A DNA stretch of 64,000 nucleotides from Leptospiraceae bacterium (GCA_015075105.1 JABTUZ010000002.1:530001-594000); one strand, 5' to 3'; positions 20,254 to 55,917 are shown, numbered from the stretch's first letter. The notes: generated by a model not told the origin, from the sequence alone. Translations and numbers: made by a program.

Positions 20254-20718
20254 ATGAACCCTGAAAAATTTGAACGAACTCAATCGAGTTTACTTATTCC
20301 AGAAAAATACATGGATGAGTTTGATCGCAGGACAGAAAATATTTCGAGAGAAGATTACTTGCATGAGTTGTTAGAGAGGTACAGGAATGTATTACTTTGG
20401 GGGACTTTTGAAAAGTTGGATTGTGTGAAAACTTGCTATCAAGAAGAAGGACAGAATTTGCAAAAGAAGAATTTTCGTCCGGAGAATGCAGACTGGATTG
20501 AGTTAGGTGAGTTTGCTCAATGGCTTGGTATTTCCCGAACGGCTCTTTTTACTCTTCTTTTGCTGCTTGACATTGCCGGATGGGACATAATCATCCCTGC
20601 CAAGTTCTATGACTTTGGAGTTCCACCCAAGGTTAGTTCTATTGCGGTAGGAGTTTACCTCTCCAAGAGAAAAACTATACGATACAATAGACTAAAACGA
20701 CATAAGCTGAAAAAATAA
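20254..20718 (+). CDS. DUF1564 protein, copy A
   Basis: 154 residues of the Leptospira-specific DUF1564 family. Features are SSLLIPEKYMDEF, a helix rich in Leu/Glu/Arg (YLHELLERYRNVL), the block KKNFRPENADWIELGEFAQ, and a hydrophobic helix (ALFTLLLLLDIAGWD). It has no signal peptide. The function is unknown; the N-terminal pattern could be a small DNA-binding fold, but I cannot show this. A strong AGGAGA precedes the ATG. It is 95% identical at protein level to copy B (55441-55917) over the first 151 residues, differing at seven positions. Its intact C-terminus RHKLKK helps show what copy B lost. Confidence 0.85.
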   Translation: MNPEKFERTQSSLLIPEKYMDEFDRRTENISREDYLHELLERYRNVLLWGTFEKLDCVKTCYQEEGQNLQKKNFRPENADWIELGEFAQWLGISRTALFTLLLLLDIAGWDIIIPAKFYDFGVPPKVSSIAVGVYLSKRKTIRYNRLKRHKLKK

Positions 20719-44668: not shown

Positions 44669-44798
44669 TGTGTAAAAAATTATATTATTCTGAAATCTTT
44701 ACTTAAACTTACTAAAAGGGTTTGATTCTTCCAGCAAAAAATGTTTTTTTTAATTAGATTTTTTGAGAAAATAGAGAAAGAATACATAAAAAACAAAA

Positions 44799-44821
44799 AA
44801 CCCGCTCTATTCAAGCGGGTT
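44799..44821 (-). terminator. intrinsic terminator of the small basic peptide gene
   Basis: AACCCGCT, loop CTATTCA, AGCGGGTT. Read on the minus strand it is followed by TTTTTTGTTT. It stands 46 nt after the stop of the peptide gene and is the only convincing terminator in this gap. Confidence 0.88.
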
Positions 44822-44867
44822 CTAAGTAAATCTTACGATTTTTATATATCTAAAAAGTTTTTTTTAT

Positions 44868-45271: not shown

Positions 45272-45691
45272 CTATAAACCTTCTTTCCAATTTGATGAAT
45301 CGTCTTCAAATACTTCCTTCTTCCAAATAGGTGCATTCTTTTTTACGGAGTCTATGATGAATTGATTTGCGGTATAAGCCTCCTTTCTATGAGGAGAAGA
45401 AGTTATAACAACCACTGCAGACTCAAGGGGCATCACTACCCCTAAGCGATGAATGCAAATTGCGCTATTCAAATTCCATTTCTCAGTCGCTTCTTTTAGT
45501 ATTCCTTCTATAATTTTTTCTGCTAACTCTGTATGCGACTCGTATTCTAAGTATTTTACTGTCTTTTCTTTGCTATAATCTCTTGTTTCACCGCTAAATA
45601 GAACAATAGCTCCCGATTTCGGGTTGTGGTGCTCGCTTAATAATTCTCCTAAGTCGATTGGATCGCGTGTAAGATATTTCAAGATGATCAA
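45272..45691 (-). CDS. moaE: molybdopterin synthase catalytic subunit MoaE
   Basis: 139 residues. MoaE with MoaD converts cyclic pyranopterin monophosphate to molybdopterin. The family core is visible: GAIVLFSGETRD, YESHTELAEK, IHRLGVV, VVITSSPHRKEAY and the catalytic lysine region KKNAPIWKKEVFEDD. It overlaps moaD by 4 nt and is the last gene of the leftward molybdoenzyme cluster. Confidence 0.95.
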   Translation of the reverse strand: MIILKYLTRDPIDLGELLSEHHNPKSGAIVLFSGETRDYSKEKTVKYLEYESHTELAEKIIEGILKEATEKWNLNSAICIHRLGVVMPLESAVVVITSSPHRKEAYTANQFIIDSVKKNAPIWKKEVFEDDSSNWKEGL

Positions 45692-45930
45692 CCTCCGCTA
45701 CAAGGTGGAAGTAAATACACTAATGAGTTTTCTATTAAAGAAAATTCTTTTTCTACAATAGAATCATCTACTACAAAGGCTGAAATAGATAAAAGCCTTT
45801 CTGATTCAGGAGAAATGCTTAAGATTTTTCTTTCCAAGTCTTCGATTGTAGAAGACTTAGGCATATTGACCACAATCTCTCCTCCCAATAATTCTTTTAG
45901 ACCCGCAAATGTTTTTACTTTTATATCCAA
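45688..45930 (-). CDS. moaD: molybdopterin synthase sulfur carrier MoaD
   Basis: About 81 residues with a ubiquitin-like fold and C-terminal Gly-Gly (LLPPCSGG), the tail that is adenylated and thiocarboxylated. The long frame opens with TTG at 45942, inside moaA; GGAGGG followed by 5 nt before the TTG at 45930 fits better and leaves 1 bp after the moaA stop. It is translationally linked to moaE. Confidence 0.92.
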   Translation of the reverse strand: MDIKVKTFAGLKELLGGEIVVNMPKSSTIEDLERKILSISPESERLLSISAFVVDDSIVEKEFSLIENSLVYLLPPCSGG

Positions 45931-45931
45931 A

Positions 45932-46867
45932 TCACCCTCCAATTGATTGCATTGAAATAGAACTTCCCGAAAAAATTCTTTCTTTTTTCAATAAAATTGC
46001 TTTCTCAAGAGCTATCTTCAGCTCTTTTTCTTCTTTTTGTATTGGGAAATAGGTGTTTTCGCTTAAACAACCGTATATATTTCCTTTATAATCCATTCTT
46101 AACCTATCACAATCCGAGCAAAATGGATTTGAATGGTTTGAAATTACTCCAATTTTTATACTCCCTGGAATTTCCCAATAAGTGCAAGTATCTGACTTCT
46201 TCCTTCCAAGCTCGATTAAATTGTATTTCTGCTGAATGATTTCTATAATATTTTTTTCTGAAAAATAAAAGTCTTGATGAGAGTAAAAAATACTCCCCAT
46301 TTTCATAAGCTCTAAATAACGAGTAGTTATATTTCTTTCTTTTGCCCATTCCAGTATAGGCAGGATCTGGGTTTCATTTATACCTTTCATTACTGTACAG
46401 TTAATTTTAACCTCTATACCCGCATTTAGTGCAGACTCAATACCTTCTAAAACAGTACCTACCCCTTTAAATCTATTTATTTTTTGGAAAATTTCTTCAC
46501 TTATCGAATCTAAGGAAACATTAATGCTGTCTAATCCTGAATTTTTTAGACTAGTTGCTGATTTTTTTAGCCTACTTCCATTTGTAGTGAGTGCAATTCT
46601 TGGAATATTGAGTTTTTTTAAGCCTAAAATTAGCTCGATTAAGTTTTTGTAAAGACTTGGTTCCCCACCCGTTAGCCGGATCGACTCTAAACCTACAATA
46701 TCATGAATCCTAGAAATATTTTCTAAAATCTCGTTTACAGGGGTTTGCTTACCTGTGTTTACTAACTTACTTCCACTTGGAGAACAATACGCACAAGAAA
46801 AATTGCAGTTTTGTAATAAACTGACTCTTAACTTTTTAAACTGTCGGTTCTTTTTATCTATTATCAT
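45932..46867 (-). CDS. moaA: GTP 3',8-cyclase MoaA (radical SAM)
   Basis: 311 residues. MoaA makes the first molybdopterin intermediate from GTP. The N-terminal radical-SAM cluster is CNFSCAYC (Cys21, 25, 28), the C-terminal cluster is CSDCDRLRMDYKGNIYGCL, and the chain ends in the Gly-Gly dipeptide typical of MoaA (SIGG). AAAGGGG sits 6 nt before the ATG. The 135-nt leader before it carries three GAAA-loop hairpins and may be a riboswitch. Confidence 0.95.
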   Translation of the reverse strand: MIIDKKNRQFKKLRVSLLQNCNFSCAYCSPSGSKLVNTGKQTPVNEILENISRIHDIVGLESIRLTGGEPSLYKNLIELILGLKKLNIPRIALTTNGSRLKKSATSLKNSGLDSINVSLDSISEEIFQKINRFKGVGTVLEGIESALNAGIEVKINCTVMKGINETQILPILEWAKERNITTRYLELMKMGSIFYSHQDFYFSEKNIIEIIQQKYNLIELGRKKSDTCTYWEIPGSIKIGVISNHSNPFCSDCDRLRMDYKGNIYGCLSENTYFPIQKEEKELKIALEKAILLKKERIFSGSSISMQSIGG

Positions 46868-46869
46868 AG

Positions 46870-46999
46870 TAAACCCCTTTGCAATTTAGTCAAGCTACCT
46901 TGACCTCGGCTTGGTGTGGAGATTTCTCTCATACCTTTCGTCCTCTTACCATAGCTTTCGCCTTAGATAATTCGGATCGGAGTCGATTTTAAAAAATTT
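46870..46999 (-). promoter_or_regulatory. structured moaA leader, possible molybdenum-cofactor riboswitch
   Basis: Read on the minus strand, the leader contains ACTCCG, then TTATC...GGTAA enclosing GC-GAAA-GC (46946-46970), then AC-GAAA-GGT (46934-46941 region), then GAGA-GAAA-TCTC (46919-46930), then GTCAAG-GTAG-CTTGAC (46889-46904), then the RBS. Several GNRA hairpins directly upstream of moaA are what the Moco RNA motif (RF01055) shows in proteobacteria. The primary match is loose, so I call it a candidate. The last hairpin lies close to the ribosome site and could act as the expression platform. Confidence 0.42.
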
Positions 47000-47002
47000 G
47001 CC

Positions 47003-47926
47003 TTAGTGTCCCCCTCCAAGAATCATATTCAATGCGTGAAACGCTCCAGGTAAAATTGCATCCAAACTTTCCTTTGCACCATTGGAGCTACCGGGCAGGG
47101 TAACTATTAAAGACTCGCCTGTGATCCCTGCAATAGTTCGAGAAAGCATAGCCCAAGGTGTTCTTTCAAAACCATGGCTTCTCATCGCCTCTGCAATACC
47201 CGGAACTTCCTTTTCTAATAAAGGTTTCACTGCTTCTATTGTATTGTCTCTCGGTCCAAGTCCTGTTCCACCTGTTACAAAAATAAAGTGGATTTTTTGA
47301 TTAACCCATTCTTGAATCTGCTTTTGAATTATTTCTATATCATCGGAGACTATTTTTAAGTCCACTACTTCTACTTTGTATTTATCCATATACTTTTGGA
47401 TAATTTTACCGGACTTATCTTCTCTTTCTTTTTTAGAAGTTGAATCAGAACAAACGAGTATAGCCGATTTTGAATTTTTTGGGACTTTAAATTTCTTATC
47501 TGATTTGCCCCCTTTTTTTTCTAATAGTTTAATTTCTGAAATTTCCATTTCTAAATCAATCGGCTTTAATAAATCATAAATTGTAAGGGCTGTAACCGAA
47601 ACTGAAGTCAATAACTCCATCTCAATTCCTGTCTTATGTATAGATTTACCTTGAACAAGAATTTGGATAGCTCCCTTGCCATCAGAATAATTTTCTAAAA
47701 TTTGAAATTCAATCTGTAAAGAGTCTATAAATATAGGGTGGCAGTGGGGTATCAGAAGATGGGTTTGTTTGGATGCAAGTAGTCCCGCAGCTTTAGCCAC
47801 ATTGAATAAATCACCCTTAGGTAAATCGGAGGACTTAACGCGAGTAATAGTTTCTTTAGAGCAAACTACAAGCCCTGAAGCTTTTGCTTCTCTTAAACTA
47901 GAATGTTTATCACTTATATCAATCAT
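47003..47926 (-). CDS. MoaC-MogA/MoaB fusion protein
   Basis: 307 residues joining two molybdopterin enzymes. Residues 1-150 are MoaC (cyclic pyranopterin monophosphate synthase): DISDKHSSLREAKASG, LIPHCHPIF, GIEMELLTSVSVTALTIYD and KKGGKS. Residues about 155-307 are the MogA/MoaB adenylyltransferase fold: VTGGTGLGPRDNTIEAVKPLL, SHGFERTPWAMLSR and TLPGSSNGAKESL. Both active sites look intact. The fusion would tie the second step of pterin synthesis to molybdopterin adenylylation. It lies between the TauE/SafE gene (13 bp) and the structured moaA leader. Confidence 0.93.
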   Translation of the reverse strand: MIDISDKHSSLREAKASGLVVCSKETITRVKSSDLPKGDLFNVAKAAGLLASKQTHLLIPHCHPIFIDSLQIEFQILENYSDGKGAIQILVQGKSIHKTGIEMELLTSVSVTALTIYDLLKPIDLEMEISEIKLLEKKGGKSDKKFKVPKNSKSAILVCSDSTSKKEREDKSGKIIQKYMDKYKVEVVDLKIVSDDIEIIQKQIQEWVNQKIHFIFVTGGTGLGPRDNTIEAVKPLLEKEVPGIAEAMRSHGFERTPWAMLSRTIAGITGESLIVTLPGSSNGAKESLDAILPGAFHALNMILGGGH

Positions 47927-47939
47927 AGTCGATTTTCTC

Positions 47940-48677
47940 TCATATAATAAACATTTTTATAGAAGCAATTATTAAAACACAAAATAAAGCACCAAGGATC
48001 ACTTTATTTTCCATTTTTTTTGCACCGAGTGTCGAGCCGGCTAATCCACCTAAAATAACGCTTAGGGACCAAATCCAAACCGATTCGTTGATTTGTATGC
48101 TTTTTGAAAATTGGCCTACAAGTCCTGAAATAGAATTTACCAATATAAATAAGGCAGAAATTCCAGAAGTGTTTTTAATTGTAGCCCACCTGAAAAATAT
48201 TAATAAAGGAGTTAGAAAAATCCCTCCACCCACTGAGGTAAGCCCAGATAGAAAACCGATTGTAGATCCACTAACCACTCCAACCGGTATAGGGAGTTTT
48301 CTTAAGGTATAGTCGCTTTTCAAAAAACCTCTGATTACCATTACAAACGCAGAAAGTAAAAGTACAGCTCCCAGAAAAATTTTCATTTCTTTATTCGGTA
48401 ATATAACTCTTCCTCCAAGAAATGAAAATGGAACTGAAAAAATTGCAAAAGTTAAAAATACAGATAAAGAAAAACGCTTATTGTAAATATACTGAACAGA
48501 AGAAATCGAAGCAACAAGTATATTCATAATCAGGGCAGAGGATCTCATTTCCGGGGGACTAATTTCTGCAATTGCCATTATAGCTAAATACCCTGAAGCT
48601 CCTGCATGACCTACTGAACTATATAGCAGCGCTATTACAAAAAATAAAATCGGTAAAATAATACTACTAAACTCCAT
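47940..48677 (-). CDS. TauE/SafE-family membrane permease
   Basis: 245 residues with about eight hydrophobic helices in two halves. GHAGASGYLAIMA in the first half and GLTSVGGGIFLTPLLIF in the second are the paired G-x-x-x-G-x-G-G motifs of the TauE/SafE (sulfite exporter, DUF81) family. Members move sulfite, sulfoacetate or other anions. It lies between the chaperone and MoaC genes, 5 bp from the former, so it could serve the molybdoenzyme by handling an oxyanion substrate or product; this is inference from position. Confidence 0.85.
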   Translation of the reverse strand: MEFSSIILPILFFVIALLYSSVGHAGASGYLAIMAIAEISPPEMRSSALIMNILVASISSVQYIYNKRFSLSVFLTFAIFSVPFSFLGGRVILPNKEMKIFLGAVLLLSAFVMVIRGFLKSDYTLRKLPIPVGVVSGSTIGFLSGLTSVGGGIFLTPLLIFFRWATIKNTSGISALFILVNSISGLVGQFSKSIQINESVWIWSLSVILGGLAGSTLGAKKMENKVILGALFCVLIIASIKMFII

Positions 48678-48682
48678 ACAAA

Positions 48683-49486
48683 CTAAGTAGATGAGTTTTT
48701 AAATAATTCATGTGTGTCGCCTAACGCACTATTTGTAAAGGTTACGTTGTAAGAATTGTCTGAATTATTTGTTTTAGTTTGGGGAGGGGAGCCTGCACAT
48801 TCAAACTGACTGTCATAATTTTCCTGATTTTTTGGTTTTAAGTAACTATCTACTCTGATTGGTTGAATTTTCAAATTTTGGATTTCCAATTCTAAAAATA
48901 ACTCTAAAATCATGGAAATATATCTATAAAATTCTATCTGAGATGTTTCTATTAATTTAAGAGAAAAAATAAATCCCCATCTACCAAGGTGGTCCTGCAA
49001 AAATTTTTTTTCTGAGTCTATTACGATTTCGAGATTATCATCATCGTGGGATTCTTTTGCGTATCCTTCCTTCAATGCAAGAAAGCTCATAAACATTAGC
49101 TCCATCTTCATTGAATCTGGAGTTCCTTGCTTAGAAGAGGGCTGTAATTTATACGCTTCGTAAAATGCGCTCACATCTCCAAGTATTGTTCCCCTATCTA
49201 CCGGATAGTAAGAGCCTTCACTCTCCGGGCAATTCATTCCTGATGAAAAAATTCGAAAATACTCTGATTCCAAACTTGGAATCATTTCTTCCGTATAAAA
49301 ATTTTTTACGTTTTCTAATAAGGGCTTTAGTCTTACATCTGTTAAATCAGATTCTAACAAAGCTTCTGAGATTTCTTGGATTATAGAAACATTTTCTAAA
49401 TTAGGAAAATCTAAGGAAATAGATAAGAGCCTGTAAAAATCCGATCTATACAGAGATTGGTGTACAGGTGATTCCATTACATTCAT
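48683..49486 (-). CDS. TorD/DmsD-family molybdoenzyme chaperone
   Basis: 267 residues, all-helical. PESEGSYYPVDRGTILGDVSAFYEAYKL matches the conserved centre of TorD-like chaperones, and DHLGRWGFIFSLKL matches the second motif. Such proteins bind the apo-catalytic subunit and its Tat signal until molybdopterin has been inserted. The C-terminal 60 residues are polar, with poor similarity. It overlaps the gamma-subunit gene by 4 nt, which fits its assignment to the alpha subunit encoded two genes upstream. Confidence 0.82.
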   Translation of the reverse strand: MNVMESPVHQSLYRSDFYRLLSISLDFPNLENVSIIQEISEALLESDLTDVRLKPLLENVKNFYTEEMIPSLESEYFRIFSSGMNCPESEGSYYPVDRGTILGDVSAFYEAYKLQPSSKQGTPDSMKMELMFMSFLALKEGYAKESHDDDNLEIVIDSEKKFLQDHLGRWGFIFSLKLIETSQIEFYRYISMILELFLELEIQNLKIQPIRVDSYLKPKNQENYDSQFECAGSPPQTKTNNSDNSYNVTFTNSALGDTHELFKNSST

Positions 49487-50298
49487 TTTCCAGCCTCAAT
49501 CAAGATTGGTTGCCAGCTCATTAGTATATTTTTTCTTGAGCCTACGTTTCCCTTTCCTCCCTCCCAAATTGCAAAACTAATTCCCGTAACTTTTCCTGAT
49601 TCTAATTTTAGCTTTTCACTTTTCATCTTCATGGCAAATCCTACTTTCCATGTATTTTTCTCCCAAACCCCCCAAGATTTTAGATCTGTAGTAGGTTGTA
49701 ATGCAAGAGAGCCAAATCCTTCTGCAATAGCGAGCTGGGAAGGAGTAGTTCTATCGTCGCGAGACGCTTGGTTCTTTGAAAGTAGAGCAGTATTTTGACC
49801 GAACTTATCGGTATTTTCTACCCAAGTATTCGGATAAATATCTTTAATTCTTTGAAATCCTTTTTCTACATCTGTTTGCCAAACTGCTTTCCATTGACCG
49901 ATTGCAACCGGTGAGTTCTTTGATCCCATGAACGGAGAAGTTTTAGTCATCTCTTTTATTGGAAATTGAATAGCACAAGCATCAGTCATTTTTTCTGTTT
50001 CAAGACTCGAATCTCTTGTGGAATCACCCCATTCCAACAAAACAAAAATCGTATCATTATTATGAACTGAACGAAATGTTAGGTTGGCAACGGTTGATTC
50101 TTTGAGTGTAGGCTGGGTCATCTGCTGTGCAGATAGATTGATTTTTATCGGAGTTACGTCTTTCCAAAAACCGGCAGAAGGTTCAGGCTTTTCAGAATAC
50201 TTCGTATCTACTTTTATAAATTTCACTGTATATTGTGCTTGCGCAAACAATGAAACTGAAATGAGATTGCATACTATCAGTAAAAATAATTTTTTCAT
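49483..50298 (-). CDS. haem-b gamma subunit of a type II DMSO-reductase-family enzyme
   Basis: 271 residues with a Sec signal peptide (cleavage near LFAQA). The mature part resembles the ethylbenzene-dehydrogenase gamma/ SerC/ ClrC family: a beta sandwich beginning with W-K-D-V and continuing TFRSVHNNDTIFVLLEWGDSTRD, DACAIQFPI and ending GISFAIWEGG. The family binds one haem b through Met and Lys and passes electrons between the beta subunit and periplasmic cytochrome c. The ligand residues cannot be fixed without an alignment. It starts 12 bp after beta. Confidence 0.82.
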   Translation of the reverse strand: MKKLFLLIVCNLISVSLFAQAQYTVKFIKVDTKYSEKPEPSAGFWKDVTPIKINLSAQQMTQPTLKESTVANLTFRSVHNNDTIFVLLEWGDSTRDSSLETEKMTDACAIQFPIKEMTKTSPFMGSKNSPVAIGQWKAVWQTDVEKGFQRIKDIYPNTWVENTDKFGQNTALLSKNQASRDDRTTPSQLAIAEGFGSLALQPTTDLKSWGVWEKNTWKVGFAMKMKSEKLKLESGKVTGISFAIWEGGKGNVGSRKNILMSWQPILIEAGK

Positions 50299-50310
50299 CG
50301 AATTCTCCTT

Positions 50311-51438
50311 TTATAGTACATTATGCCTATATACATTTTCTTTTTTATCAAAATACGGGCGCTCAAAGAATGGCTCTGTAAACGGAACTCTAACTACCTC
50401 TTTTCCACTTTCGTTATAGCCAATTGCTTCCTCATTTTCGACTTTATACTTAGTGATTATGTACGGGGTATTTCCAAAAAGTAAAAATGCACCGAGTAAC
50501 TTTGGATCGGATTTTATGTTTCTGTAAATCTCAACTGCCTTATCACAATTTGGACCAAACATTTGTTTTAAAAAATCTTTTGGAACATGGACAGGTGGAA
50601 TATAATATACGTTAGGCTCTGTCCCATACTGTGGGTAGAGTGGGAGTGCAGCTTTTTTAATATGTACAATGTAATCAAGGGGGTTATCTTCTTTTGCTTC
50701 TTCTGGTTTAGATAACCAACCTTGCATACGAATTTTACCTATACAAGTTTGAACACACCTTGGCTGCTCTCCCCTTTCTAAAAGAGGAAAACAAGCGATA
50801 CATTTTTCTGAAGTACGAGTAATCATATTATAAAAAGTTTTTTTATAAGGACAGGCCTTTACGCACTCTCTGTAACCGTTACACCTGCTTTGATCGACTA
50901 ATACTACACCGTCTTCGTCCCTTTTATAAATTGCTTTTCTTGGGCAAGCCGCAAGACACGCAGGGTATGTACAATGATTACAAATTCTTGCAAGATAAAA
51001 CATCCAGGTTTTATGAATTCCTTGGAAAAAAGCACCTTTTTCTATGCTTTGAGTTATTTCGTCTTCTCCGATATTTGGATGGGCATAATCTTTTTGCTCT
51101 GGTAAATAACCTTGTACTCTTTCGCCTTGAGGAGCATTTTCAAAAATTGTTTTTCCTGAGTACTCTTCTCCCTTCCAAGTCTGCTCGCCGAGATTTTTTA
51201 ACCCATTCACATCCCAAGCAATCGGATAAAATCCGTAAGGCTTAGTCTCTACGTTATTCCAAAACATATTTTCTTGTCCTTGCCCAGAAGTCCAAGTAGT
51301 CTTACAAGCAATAGAGCAAGTCTGACATTCAATACATTTGTTTGTATCAAAAATATACGCTACTTGTTTTTTAGGTCTTTTCCCTTCGTAAGGGTATTCC
51401 ATTTCTCTGGATATTTGCCAATTTTTTACTTTTCCCAT
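50311..51438 (-). CDS. iron-sulfur beta subunit (NarH/EbdB-like)
   Basis: 375 residues with four cysteine groups, as in the beta subunits of NarGH, SerAB, ClrAB and EbdAB. Sites are CIECQTCSIAC near residue 36, CNHCTYPACLAACPRKA near 150, CNGYRECVKACPYKK near 185 and CIACFPLL ... CVQTCIGKIR near 215-240. The replacement of a cysteine by Tyr/Arg in CNGYREC is the feature that gives a 3Fe-4S cluster in NarH. It has no signal peptide and would be exported with alpha. Confidence 0.92.
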   Translation of the reverse strand: MGKVKNWQISREMEYPYEGKRPKKQVAYIFDTNKCIECQTCSIACKTTWTSGQGQENMFWNNVETKPYGFYPIAWDVNGLKNLGEQTWKGEEYSGKTIFENAPQGERVQGYLPEQKDYAHPNIGEDEITQSIEKGAFFQGIHKTWMFYLARICNHCTYPACLAACPRKAIYKRDEDGVVLVDQSRCNGYRECVKACPYKKTFYNMITRTSEKCIACFPLLERGEQPRCVQTCIGKIRMQGWLSKPEEAKEDNPLDYIVHIKKAALPLYPQYGTEPNVYYIPPVHVPKDFLKQMFGPNCDKAVEIYRNIKSDPKLLGAFLLFGNTPYIITKYKVENEEAIGYNESGKEVVRVPFTEPFFERPYFDKKENVYRHNVL

Positions 51439-51465
51439 TGTATATTCTCCTTCATCCTGTTTCGC

Positions 51466-54400
51466 CTAACGGATGTATCCACCTTTGATATATTTTAACA
51501 ATTCAGCACTTTCATAGCTTGGTCTTAGTTTTTGTGCTGCAAGTCTCCATAATCCTTTTCCATCCATGCCTCCATTTTCTGCTTTGGTAATTTTGACAAA
51601 AGACTCCCTTGGTGCGCCGGTAGGACAATGAACATCAGGCTCGAAACCTTTTCCGATTTTTTGACCTGCAATATCTTTTCTAACAAGACTGTCTGTCATC
51701 CAAGTAGGTTTTAGCCAACCTCTTGTAGCACTCTGGTGAGAACCGCCACGGAACATGGACTGGTAACCCGTGTCTGGACTTTTTGCAAGACCATCTGCCC
51801 TTGTTTTTGCACCTTTTATACTACCAAAAGTAGAGCCATACATATTGTGCCACATACGGGTAACTCCTTTAGGAGTTCCGTTGTAGTACCTTGCTCTACA
51901 CAATAGCCTTGCAACCTCGTACTCTTCTTTTCTGTTTTGCCAACCCATAAACGGCCTGTCGTGTGGGTCTGCATCTATATATATGTAGTCTCCATCTTCA
52001 ATTCCAAGTGACTTGGCATCTGATGGATTTATATCCATATACGCTTCAGTAACAAAAGGCATTCTTTTGTCTCTTCTGTGCATATCTCCAAAAGGCCCAA
52101 ACCATACTGCAATTATATCTGTGTCAATTGGAGTAGTGTGGGCTCCGTGTCTGTATTTTGGTGTATGGAATATAAACTTAAAGCCCTGGCTTGTAAGAGG
52201 GTGTCTCGTGCCTTCTACACTTCCCCAAGGTTTAACTACGTGGCGAGCTTGTCTGGAATCTGCATCTAACTTACTTGAGCTAACCCCATAGCTTTCGGGA
52301 GTTCTGGGTCTGATTGCAGGATTAGGCTTAGATACAATCACATTCGGCTCATAAAAAGTAGAGTCAATTGGTTCTCTGTAAACTGGGATATTTTCCCCAC
52401 TATCTATAAATTCCTTCTCTCCTCTATAAAATTCCAGCCTACCTGTTTTAGTATAAAAAGGTTTGTTTTCTTTCATCTGCTCATAAGAGCTGAATTTAGG
52501 ATAAGTTCTAGACATTAAAAGTGCAGGAATTCCTTTTTTAGCCTTAGCTTCTAAATCGTCAAAGTTGTATCCTTTTGTAGCGTTACTTGTATCTAAAATT
52601 CTTTGTAAGTAAACTCCTACCTTATTTTTATGTACATACTTCCAATAATCCTCAAACCTATCGTCATTAGTCATTTTTGCAAAAGCTTTTCCAAGACCTG
52701 CCGCAACCTCTATGTCCGACCTAGTGTTGTAAATTCTTTCCATTGGAGTTCTAGGGAACACATACAAAAATGGATTCGTTACAGATATTGTCATGTCTGG
52801 GTGCTTAAATTCTGCCCAGCTATCAACAGGAAAAACAATATCTGCATATTCACAAGATGCAGTCCACCACCATTCGTTTACCGCTAAAAATTCGGTCTTA
52901 GGAAGGGTATTCATCACAACATCGTAGTGTCCTTTTACGTTTCCAATTAAAGAGTTACTGTTCGCTACGTGGATCGCTTTTGTAGGCACAGGAATATGAG
53001 TTTTTCCGGTAAGAATTTCATTTCCCATTCTAAGAATTTTATCGCCGTGATTCCAATAGTGAACTGATTCTGCCTTCCAATAACGCTTGATCTTAGATGG
53101 TGCTGCTCCGTTGAAATTAATATTGAATGGGTCTTCCATAGTATAATTTCCAAGACCACTCATAAACCCCCATCTATAGTTTCCAGCATAGCTGCCTACG
53201 TTACCCCCCATCTGCCCTACGTTTTCAGTCAAGGCAGCTAAAAGAAAAACTGCCCTGTCTTTTAAATCGCTATTAAAAAATTGGTTTGGACCCATACCCA
53301 TTGCAAATAAAGTTTTGCCTTTGTTGTTTATAATTTCATTTGCAATTGCTTTAATTCCTTCAACAGGAGCCCAAGTGATTTTAGATGTACTTTCCGGGTC
53401 GCAATTATCTAAAATATAGTTTTTTAACAATTCAAACACAGGCTTTACTTCGATTTCTTTTCCATCTGCAAGTTTTACCTTGAAACTTCCGTCCAAAGCT
53501 GCATCTACTCCAAGTTTTTCAAATTCTTTTCCGTAGTTGTCTCTGGTAGCAACTACTGCTTTTTTGGTTTTTGTATCCCATACTAAAAAGTCTCCCCATT
53601 CTTCTCGTAATTCTTCAGATACAATAGGGGATTTTTGCTTTATGGGTGGAGGAAGAGTCTCGTCTTTTTTCAATACTTGTATATAGTTTTGAATAGAAGC
53701 ATTTTTGTGATTTTTATCTAAATCACTTGCTTTCAACATTTCTAGATTATCCATTCTTACTAAAAACGGAAAGTCCGTATATTTTTTAACATATTCAGGG
53801 TTGAATTTTTTTTCTTTAATTATATGGTAGCAAAATCCAAGCGCAAGTGCAGGAGTTGTTCCAGGTCTTACAACTAACGCATAGTCTGCTTTTGAGCATG
53901 TTGCGCTATATTCAGCAGCAATCACAGCAACTTTTGCTCCCTTCATCCTTGCTTCTGTAAGCCAATGAGAGTCAGGCATCTTAGTGGTAATCCAGTTCAT
54001 ACCCCAACTGATTATAAAGTTAGAATATTCAGTGTTTACTAAATCGAAGTCATTTGTTTGATGCCCTGTTACCATAGGATGCCCTGGTGGTAAATCTGTG
54101 TGCCATGTATAATTATCCCAGCCTGTTGCACCTACTGCTTTATCAGGACCTACATTTCTAATTTTAGAGTCGAGTAATGCAAACATATTTGCAAGTCTGT
54201 ACTGTGCATGGATTCGAGTGATACCGAGCGCAGGCATACCACCTCTTAGCTTAATTGTTCTAATTCCTGCACCTTTCATTTCTTCTACCATAGCAGGATC
54301 ATAACCTTGCGAAAGTAGTGCTTTTTTGCCTTCCTCACCCGTGTAAGTCTTTGCGATATTTTCAAGAGCTTTTGCTTCTAAGTCCAAAGCCTCTTCCCAA

Positions 54401-54957
54401 CTTACTTTGACCCAAGAGTCTCTTCCTCTATTTAGGTACTTTGCGGGAACTGCCTTAGTATTCAGATCTCTTTCAAAGTTTGATTTGACCCAGTCCATAA
54501 AACCTTTTCTGACCATTGGCTCCTTGCATCTTCTATCTCCATAAACCCTTCGAGCAAGTGCTAATCCCTTTTGACAACACCTTGGATCCCATCTATGAGA
54601 GGCCTTATTTCCATAAATGTCAGTTGCCTTTCCAAAACCAAAACTTGGACCTATCCTTACTGTTACTCCATTTTTTACATAAGCGGTCAAAAGACAATTG
54701 TGTGTATCGTTTGGGGCGCAAAGGAAATGAAACGTAGAATCATAATCAAATAAATTTCTGTAGTGTTTTTCCCAACCTCTATTCGGGTAGCCTGTCAATG
54801 GATTGGCATGGTCTAATGGTTTTAGATAATCGAACATATCTCCCTTATCTTTACACTTTGAAAGGAAAGCAGATGCTCCAAGTAGTGCAGCTCCTTTCAA
54901 AAAGCTTGTTCTGGGTAGTTTTGTTTCTTTATTTTTTGATTTAGATTTTGTATTCAT
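51466..54957 (-). CDS. molybdopterin catalytic alpha subunit, type II DMSO-reductase family
   Basis: 1163 residues, long as for NarG/EbdA. The N-terminus [14 protein letters not shown] resembles a Tat signal, but only one arginine is present (R16-T17). Next comes the FS0 cluster, spaced differently from NarG: His77, Cys80, Cys88 and Cys127 or Cys128 (H-x2-C-x7-C). The probable Mo ligand is the Asp in QTNDFDL (residue 303). The WG-x(3)[13 protein letters not shown] block and the C-terminal dinucleotide-binding domain are intact. It is a respiratory oxidoreductase of unknown substrate: nitrate, chlorate, selenate, or hydroxylation of a hydrocarbon are all possible. GGGGA lies just before the start at 54957; a start at 54969 is the alternative. 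Confidence 0.88.
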
Positions 54958-55440
54958 CGTGTTCCCCATAATTTATTTTAATATAGTATTATTACTAAAT
55001 TTTAGTTAAATTTATTTTGAAATTTATTTGCAACGATATTTAGGCAAATTGACCCCTTAGATGAGTATGATAAAAATCACATTTATAATTTGATTGGGCT
55101 ATAAAGTTGGATCTCCAATTCGGAGGGCTATGATTGAAATAGAGAAGTTGGAAATCTTTTTTTAATTGATTCCCCTTTTTCGGATGAGTTTTTAATATTA
55201 CACTTTTAGTGTAAATTTGCACTTTTCATGCAAAAATGTGGGAACTCCACCTTTTTTGGGGAATTTCAAGAGATTACGTATTTAATACAGATTAGGGACT
55301 TTTTCTGTAAAAACCTAGAAAAATCTTCAGAAAACATAAAAAAACGCAAAAAATTTATTTCTATCACGATATTATTTTACCTTATATCAAAAGGCAGGGT
55401 CAGGATAGAGAAAAGAAAACTTTTATATTAGGAGAAAAAA
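54958..55440. other. gene-free stretch between the molybdoenzyme cluster and DUF1564 copy B
   Basis: About 480 bp holding divergent promoter regions. A 67-codon frame (55228-55431) is open but low in complexity, and lacks an RBS. The segment near 55200-55255 (TTTGCAC...TGCAAAAATGTG, then GTGGGAACTCCAC) resembles a short leptospiral repeat and is related to the palindrome at 3671. I found no clear FNR-type box. Confidence 0.5.
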
Positions 55441-55917
55441 ATGAATCCGGAAAAATTTGAGCGAACTCAATCAAGTTTACTCATTCCAGAAAAATATATG
55501 GATGAGTTTAATTCGAGGACTGAAACTATTTCGAGAGAGGATTACTTGCATGAGTTATTGGAGAGATACAGGAATGTGTTACTTTGGCGGACTTTTGAAA
55601 AGTTAGATTGTGTGAAGACGGTGTATCAGGAAGAAGGGCAAAATCTTCAGAAGAAGAACTTTCGTCCTGAGAATGCAGATTGGATTGAATTGGGAGAATT
55701 TGCTCAATGGCTCGGTATTTCCAGAACGGCTCTTTTTACTCTTCTTTTGTTGCTTGACATTGCCGGATGGGACATAATCATCCCTACCAAGTTCTATGAC
55801 TTTGGAGTTCCACCCAAGGTCAGTTCGATTGCGGTAGGAGTTTACCTCTCCAAGAGAAAAACCATACGATACAATAGGTTGATACGACATAAGGAGGGTG
55901 TAGGAAATTTTGTGTAA
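55441..55917 (+). CDS. DUF1564 protein, copy B, with IS-derived C-terminus
   Basis: 158 residues, nearly identical to copy A (20254-20718) until RHK at position 152, where the two diverge completely. The last codons (EGVGNFV and TAA) lie inside the left inverted repeat of the adjacent IS256-family element. On the far side of the element, after the repeated CGACATAAG, the sequence continues AAGAGAGAAAATTAG, which would have given a natural ending RHKKREN. The insertion thus replaced four codons and a stop with eight others; the bulk of the protein should be unaffected. AGGAGA precedes the ATG. Confidence 0.88.
   Translation: MNPEKFERTQSSLLIPEKYMDEFNSRTETISREDYLHELLERYRNVLLWRTFEKLDCVKTVYQEEGQNLQKKNFRPENADWIELGEFAQWLGISRTALFTLLLLLDIAGWDIIIPTKFYDFGVPPKVSSIAVGVYLSKRKTIRYNRLIRHKEGVGNFV
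55885..55893. repeat. left 9-bp target-site duplication
   Basis: CGACATAAG, identical to 57204-57212. Nine bases fits the 8-9 bp duplication made by IS256-family elements. Confidence 0.85.

Follow-up and report, generated by a model that had tools for sequence, protein, structure and literature searches.

The nitrite oxidoreductase (NXR) of Nitrotoga and the periplasmic nitrate reductase of Hydrogenobacter thermophilus fall together into a sister clade of the NXRs of Nitrospira and anammox bacteria, the Nitrotoga beta subunit carrying Cys in place of Asp45 and lacking an eight-residue insert (PMC6050957). In Beggiatoaceae, NxrA/NarG has been treated as a nitrate reductase, stored nitrate being reduced (PMC6052272).

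We analysed a 64,000-nucleotide stretch of the genome of a Leptospiraceae bacterium (JABTUZ010000002.1, 530001-594000; hereafter the window), the host apparently living in a wastewater partial-nitritation/anammox reactor. The explanation we favour, and consider probable, is that the window encodes a periplasmic alpha-beta-gamma enzyme of the NXR sister clade that reduces nitrate, with TauE as a candidate molybdate importer. The enzyme joins a known but barely characterised clade and places an NXR-related nitrate/nitrite enzyme in leptospires, in which none is reported in the literature searched.

Gene content and family assignment

An ORF check of the window revealed nine co-oriented, tightly packed ORFs, all on the minus strand (Table 1), with gaps from alpha to moaE of 27, 12, -4, 5, 13, 135, -11 and -4 nt, in agreement with the arrangement given in the preliminary description including the 135 nt preceding moaA. 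The identity of each of the nine genes was confirmed by family profiles. For alpha, a second ATG at 54957, where the cluster had previously been taken to end, is an alternative to the start used here. The terminator-like hairpin lies about 450 bp beyond moaE on the minus strand. No FNR/CRP or sigma54 boxes were found upstream of alpha, and no cytochrome c gene is present within the cluster.

Table 1. Features of the molybdoenzyme cluster in window coordinates
Feature	Position	Strand	Properties
Alpha, NxrA/NarG-like catalytic subunit	51466..54969	-	1167 aa; profile and structure matches; Mo ligand D292; substrate-side N87; FS0 ligands C84/D88/C92/C132; R-T export signal
Beta, NxrB/NarH-like	50311..51438	-	375 aa; Fe-S Cys conserved among relatives compared
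Gamma, EbdC/NxrC-like haem-b subunit	49483..50298	-	271 aa; Sec-type signal; predicted haem ligands Met124 and Lys256
TorD-family chaperone (DMSO_red_II_cha)	48683..49486	-	Family profiles
TauE/SafE (TSUP) permease, candidate molybdate importer	47940..48677	-	Profile and gene context
MoaC-MoaB/MogA fusion	47003..47926	-	Above NF002947 cut-off
MoaA	45932..46867	-	Both Fe-S motifs and GG tail; genome's only MoaA
MoaD	45688..45942	-	GG at end
MoaE	45272..45691	-	Family profiles
Terminator-like hairpin behind moaE	44797..44823	-	11-bp stem, T run; consensus match only

The profiles TIGR03479, TIGR03478, TIGR03477 and TIGR03482 were all matched with E-values of 4e-90 to 5e-18, under the strict NCBI cut-offs; representing alpha, beta, the haem-b gamma and the chaperone, they assign the predicted enzyme to the type II DMSO reductase family. 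The family profiles thereby bear out the earlier view of a periplasmic-type type II enzyme with a TorD chaperone and linked cofactor genes in a leptospire. The layout that had been ascribed to type II enzymes in general holds for the periplasmic enzymes with an EbdC-type gamma subunit but not for NarGHJI, whose gamma subunit is a membrane protein.

Relationship to nitrite oxidoreductases

The best solved relative of alpha is Kuenenia NxrA, matched over residues 17-1164 with an E-value of 3.5e-267 and 892 bits, compared to 189, 124 and 119 bits for the solved structures of PcrA, NarG and EbdA, respectively; gamma matches Kuenenia NxrC with an E-value of 6e-19. In the alpha tree, the window clade (35 rows, 100/100) is sister to the clade of Nitrospira and Kuenenia NXRs (100/100) with NarG and PcrA outside both, the long PcrA and Halobaculum branches making the deep order unsure while leaving this sister relation unaffected.

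Following the Kuenenia numbering of PMC8387239, Asp275 (the Mo ligand), Asn70, Cys67 and Asp71 correspond to D292, N87, C84 and D88 of the window alpha, all four being invariant across five aligned alpha sequences, and the haem-binding Met155 and Lys305 of gamma have their counterparts in M124 and K256, conserved in 17/17 gammas compared. The window enzyme shares with the Nitrospira/Kuenenia NXRs (PDB 7b04) 39-40% identity from end to end, the Mo-coordinating Asp, the Asn, the three Cys and one Asp of FS0 and the Met/Lys pair of the gamma haem, and differs from them in falling into a separate clade and, compared to five Nitrospira betas, in having Cys45 instead of Asp and lacking their insert. 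Since every catalytic and haem ligand tested is intact, the enzyme very probably acts on the nitrate/nitrite couple. The substrate, which the preliminary description had left open, can accordingly be narrowed by phylogeny and ligands, while the direction is still not readable from the sequence because NXRs are reversible, the clade is reported to hold the nitrite oxidiser Nitrotoga and the presumed reactor supplies nitrite.

We infer that the window clade is the Nitrotoga/Hydrogenobacter sister clade, based on its Beggiatoaceae members, the beta features and the descriptions in PMC6050957 and PMC8387239, the tree comparing alpha with NarG, PcrA and the NXRs of Nitrospira and Kuenenia. Common to both are the sister position to the Nitrospira/anammox NXRs, A-B-C and chaperone genes, a beta subunit with Cys at Asp45 and no eight-residue insert, and a gamma subunit without evident membrane anchor. 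In contrast, the Mo-site motif reads Y-4x-D-11x-QT in the window with QM in Nitrotoga, and the window has linked moa genes, TauE and an R-T export motif.

A main role in reducing another oxyanion, i.e. chlorate, perchlorate or selenate, would agree with the shared membership of the type II family and the common gene layout. The EbdA/PcrA type II enzymes resemble the window enzyme in subunit architecture, in the haem-b gamma (Ebd) and in the TorD-type chaperone; however, the alpha bits are about five (PcrA) to seven (EbdA) times lower and PcrA lies far outside the NXR and sister clades, so that, with PcrA and EbdA as the enzymes compared, we regard this role as quite improbable.

Several assignments were rejected. 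Alpha as NarG, PcrA or EbdA is ruled out by scores and tree (EbdA by scores); a respiratory NarGHI by alpha not grouping with NarG and gamma not being of the NarI membrane type; and membership in the Nitrospira/anammox NXR clade by the tree and by beta Cys45 without insert.

A scan of the collection yielded 584 stretches encoding alpha relatives, the best 80 of the 584 being 56-72% identical and originating from Deltaproteobacteria, Beggiatoaceae, Planctomycetes, Bacteroidota, Acidobacteria and others. Nitrospirota hold two clean alpha classes, one window-like with 54-62% identity and one of multi-copy NXRs with 39-40%. Around the Brocadiia locus, a search at class level found no anammox NXR.

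Direction of the reaction and export

Direction, electron donor, TauE substrate and export are what we infer in the following model. The alpha-beta-gamma enzyme, a member of the NXR sister clade, would be soluble or surface-attached in the periplasm and in vivo most likely convert nitrate to nitrite outside the cytoplasm, potentially reversibly. Either a periplasmic cytochrome c or alternative complex III would donate electrons to the gamma haem b, from where they would travel along the beta Fe-S chain to the bis-MGD molybdenum in alpha. TorD would help in cofactor loading, the cluster-encoded MoaA, MoaC-MogA, MoaD and MoaE would make the cofactor, and TauE would most likely import molybdate where the genome shows no ModB-type permease.

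Outside the leptospires, three Deltaproteobacteria MAGs come closest in the tree, with an alpha identity of 71-72%, and in one of these (L016, alpha 71% identical) nrfH-nrfA follow directly after torD. NrfH/NrfA constitute the ammonium-forming nitrite reductase. Crp/FNR-type regulators are encoded near several of the relative loci, and Beggiatoaceae carry members of the clade. With nrfHA adjoining the L016 operon and clade members present in nitrate-reducing Beggiatoaceae, nitrate reduction would be the probable direction, nitrite oxidation being the less likely one. According to the latter reading, the enzyme would mainly act as a nitrite oxidoreductase by which the leptospire oxidises reactor nitrite and passes the electrons to a terminal oxidase. 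The best solved homologue being an NXR, the position of the Nitrotoga NXR in the same sister clade of reversible enzymes (PMC6050957) and the presumed anammox-reactor habitat rich in nitrite all speak for it. It is rendered unlikely by the nrfHA genes linked in the close relative, by the potential nitrite oxidisers of the reactor paper, which do not include Spirochaetota, and by the missing cytochrome partner in the cluster; the beta subunit without the Nitrospira Asp and insert also argues against it, though not decisively, Nitrotoga being the same. If nitrate is reduced, as we favour, a periplasmic return of nitrate to nitrite in an anammox reactor would supply nitrite to the loop described for this system.

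In some relatives gamma is apparently fused to a cytochrome c domain (L026:13532-14920, Pfam check; also L034, L038 and L046), suggesting cytochrome c as the electron partner of such enzymes. Genes for Alginate_exp-type outer-membrane barrels, possibly nitrate/nitrite porins, lie beside the enzyme at L015:15182-16444, L053:13291-14715, L020:6728-8011 and L036:6940-8253.

The twin arginine that is reported for Nitrotoga and is common in, but not strictly defining of, the Nitrotoga-type clade is replaced in the export signal of the window alpha, which has R-T in place of R-R. Other leptospire alphas have R-K and R-S, whereas nearly all non-leptospire relatives keep RRxF. The alpha twin arginine is lacking in three leptospire lineages (window 54850-54969; L006, L007, L008). 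That all of these deviate could be taken to mean that alpha is no longer exported and that the cluster is non-functional or cytoplasmic. We consider this very improbable, given that TatC is present in the genome, that its ActB likewise shows R-K (L012:7697-10786), suggesting a relaxed signal, and that the tested catalytic residues are intact within an open frame of 1167 codons. A relaxed Tat signal in leptospires is the likely reading of these motifs.

Cofactor supply, the TauE permease and spread of the block

The genome searched comprises 3,423,352 bases in 4 contigs, one of 2.007 Mb, and is 99.97% complete. Its other PF00384 matches are ActB of alternative complex III and a NuoG-like protein, so that alpha is the only molybdenum enzyme of the DMSO reductase family in the genome; further Moco enzymes of the PF00384 superfamily as users of the cofactor were rejected on the same grounds. 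The genome has one MoaA, located in the cluster; the proteins with a MogA-type domain are the fusion, MoeA and a CinA-like protein. With alpha as sole molybdenum enzyme of the superfamily and the single MoaA in the cluster, the Moco genes appear to serve the alpha enzyme, which offers a reason for their adjacency. The earlier notion of a self-sufficient cofactor supply applies to this MoaA and the linked moa genes but not to moeA, mobA and moeB, which are absent from the cluster, moeA lying 200 kb away.

The function of the permease is the most interesting part of our predictions, and the linkage to the cofactor genes is real and recurs. At 82 loci, moa genes occur within about 9 kb in 9/10 with TauE versus 10/72 without (p 2.8e-6, ignoring relatedness). 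The profile search found no ModB match in the window genome, and across 34 alpha-bearing genomes ModB above cut-off is present in 0/11 with a cluster TauE versus 11/23 without (p 0.006, the counts including related genomes and incomplete MAGs and p ignoring kinship and MAG gaps). In Moraxella plasmids, a TauE relative (43.5% identical to the window TauE) ends a Moco operon behind cytoplasmic narGHJI, in NZ_CP135140 in the order narGHJI-moeA-moaA-moaB-mobA-moaCDE-tauE. This cassette resembles the window in combining nitrate-reductase genes with a Moco operon and a TauE, and differs in its cytoplasmic NarGHJI, its NarK transporters and a fuller Moco set including moeA and mobA. TauE is thereby uncoupled from the periplasmic enzyme and linked to Moco instead.

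TauE following the Moco genes and anticorrelating with ModB suggests molybdate import, which is the simplest reading of both patterns and which we propose tentatively. It is also quite conceivable that TauE exports nitrite, sulfite or another by-product with no role in molybdate uptake, an alternative concerning the permease only. This would be the annotated role of the family, and two alpha-bearing leptospire genomes have no cluster TauE. Other TauE relatives are found in arsenic(-resistance) operons, which also favours export and shows the family to handle more than one oxyanion. Three points argue against export, namely that a periplasmic enzyme would release its nitrite outside the cytoplasm anyway, that TauE accompanies the Moco genes also where the neighbouring NarGHJI is cytoplasmic, and that it is anticorrelated with ModB. 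The anion that TauE/SafE had been taken to hint at is thus better tied to Moco and molybdate than to the substrate of the enzyme. No paper tying TauE/TSUP to molybdate was found in the literature searched, and molybdate import provides a directly testable function for a branch of a very large, poorly characterised permease family.

Neither alpha nor MoaA is found in three same-family genomes of good quality (G002-G004), which renders it likely that the cluster was gained as a block; this previous suggestion thereby gains support while staying at the level of a probability. Alpha is found in only 4/48 Leptospirae genomes, and the Turneriella-like alpha (L008) sits in a different branch of the tree together with Oligoflexia and Myxococcaceae, so that leptospires probably acquired the enzyme more than once. 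Composition gave no clear signal of recent foreign origin (cluster 36.7% GC, alpha 39%, flanks 32-37%). A binning error was rejected, the block lying on a 1.4-Mb contig beside groEL and flanked by DUF1564 repeats that recur elsewhere in the genome.

Beyond leptospires, enzyme and Moco set adjoin in Deltaproteobacteria (L014-16), Bacteroidota (L020, L034, L036, L038), Competibacteraceae (L026) and a planctomycete (L041), the set comprising moaA, moeA, tauE, mobA, moeB, moaE and moaC-mogA in varying completeness; L046 has both without tauE. The search of related genomes thus recovered the block in several phyla, but moa genes are not nearby at 63/82 loci. The linkage of enzyme and Moco genes is optional but not accidental. 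More speculatively, the block could be a portable nitrate-respiration kit shared across phyla, with its own cofactor factory and with TauE/SafE as a so far unrecognised class of molybdate importer replacing ModABC.

Some relatives show unusual arrangements. A Turneriella-like locus (L011:82-12528) holds NarG/NarH-type genes and a dihaem cytochrome c divergent from an NXR-like nxrABC-torD-tauE operon, i.e. by their predicted products two nitrate/nitrite enzymes head to head. The KatS3mg129 alpha (L010:3518-6835) is about 58 residues short at the C-terminus and followed by a 247-bp gap before beta, either an assembly error or a frameshift. On a plasmid of Natronococcus occultus (L128:8001-11404), an alpha about 46% identical to that of the window is present in two pieces; it is unannotated in the PLSDB table and adjoins beta and TorD genes.

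A DUF1564 gene, possibly a mobile or amplified leptospire element, is present in three copies (window 55441-55917, window 20254-20718 and L135:6506-6967) with about 95-96% protein identity within roughly 150 kb sampled. One copy starts 470 bp from alpha and one 2 kb from moeA, the homology to the moeA-side copy reaching upstream to about 55120 and into the alpha upstream region. As the copies are frequent, their position beside both moeA and alpha is probably due to chance.
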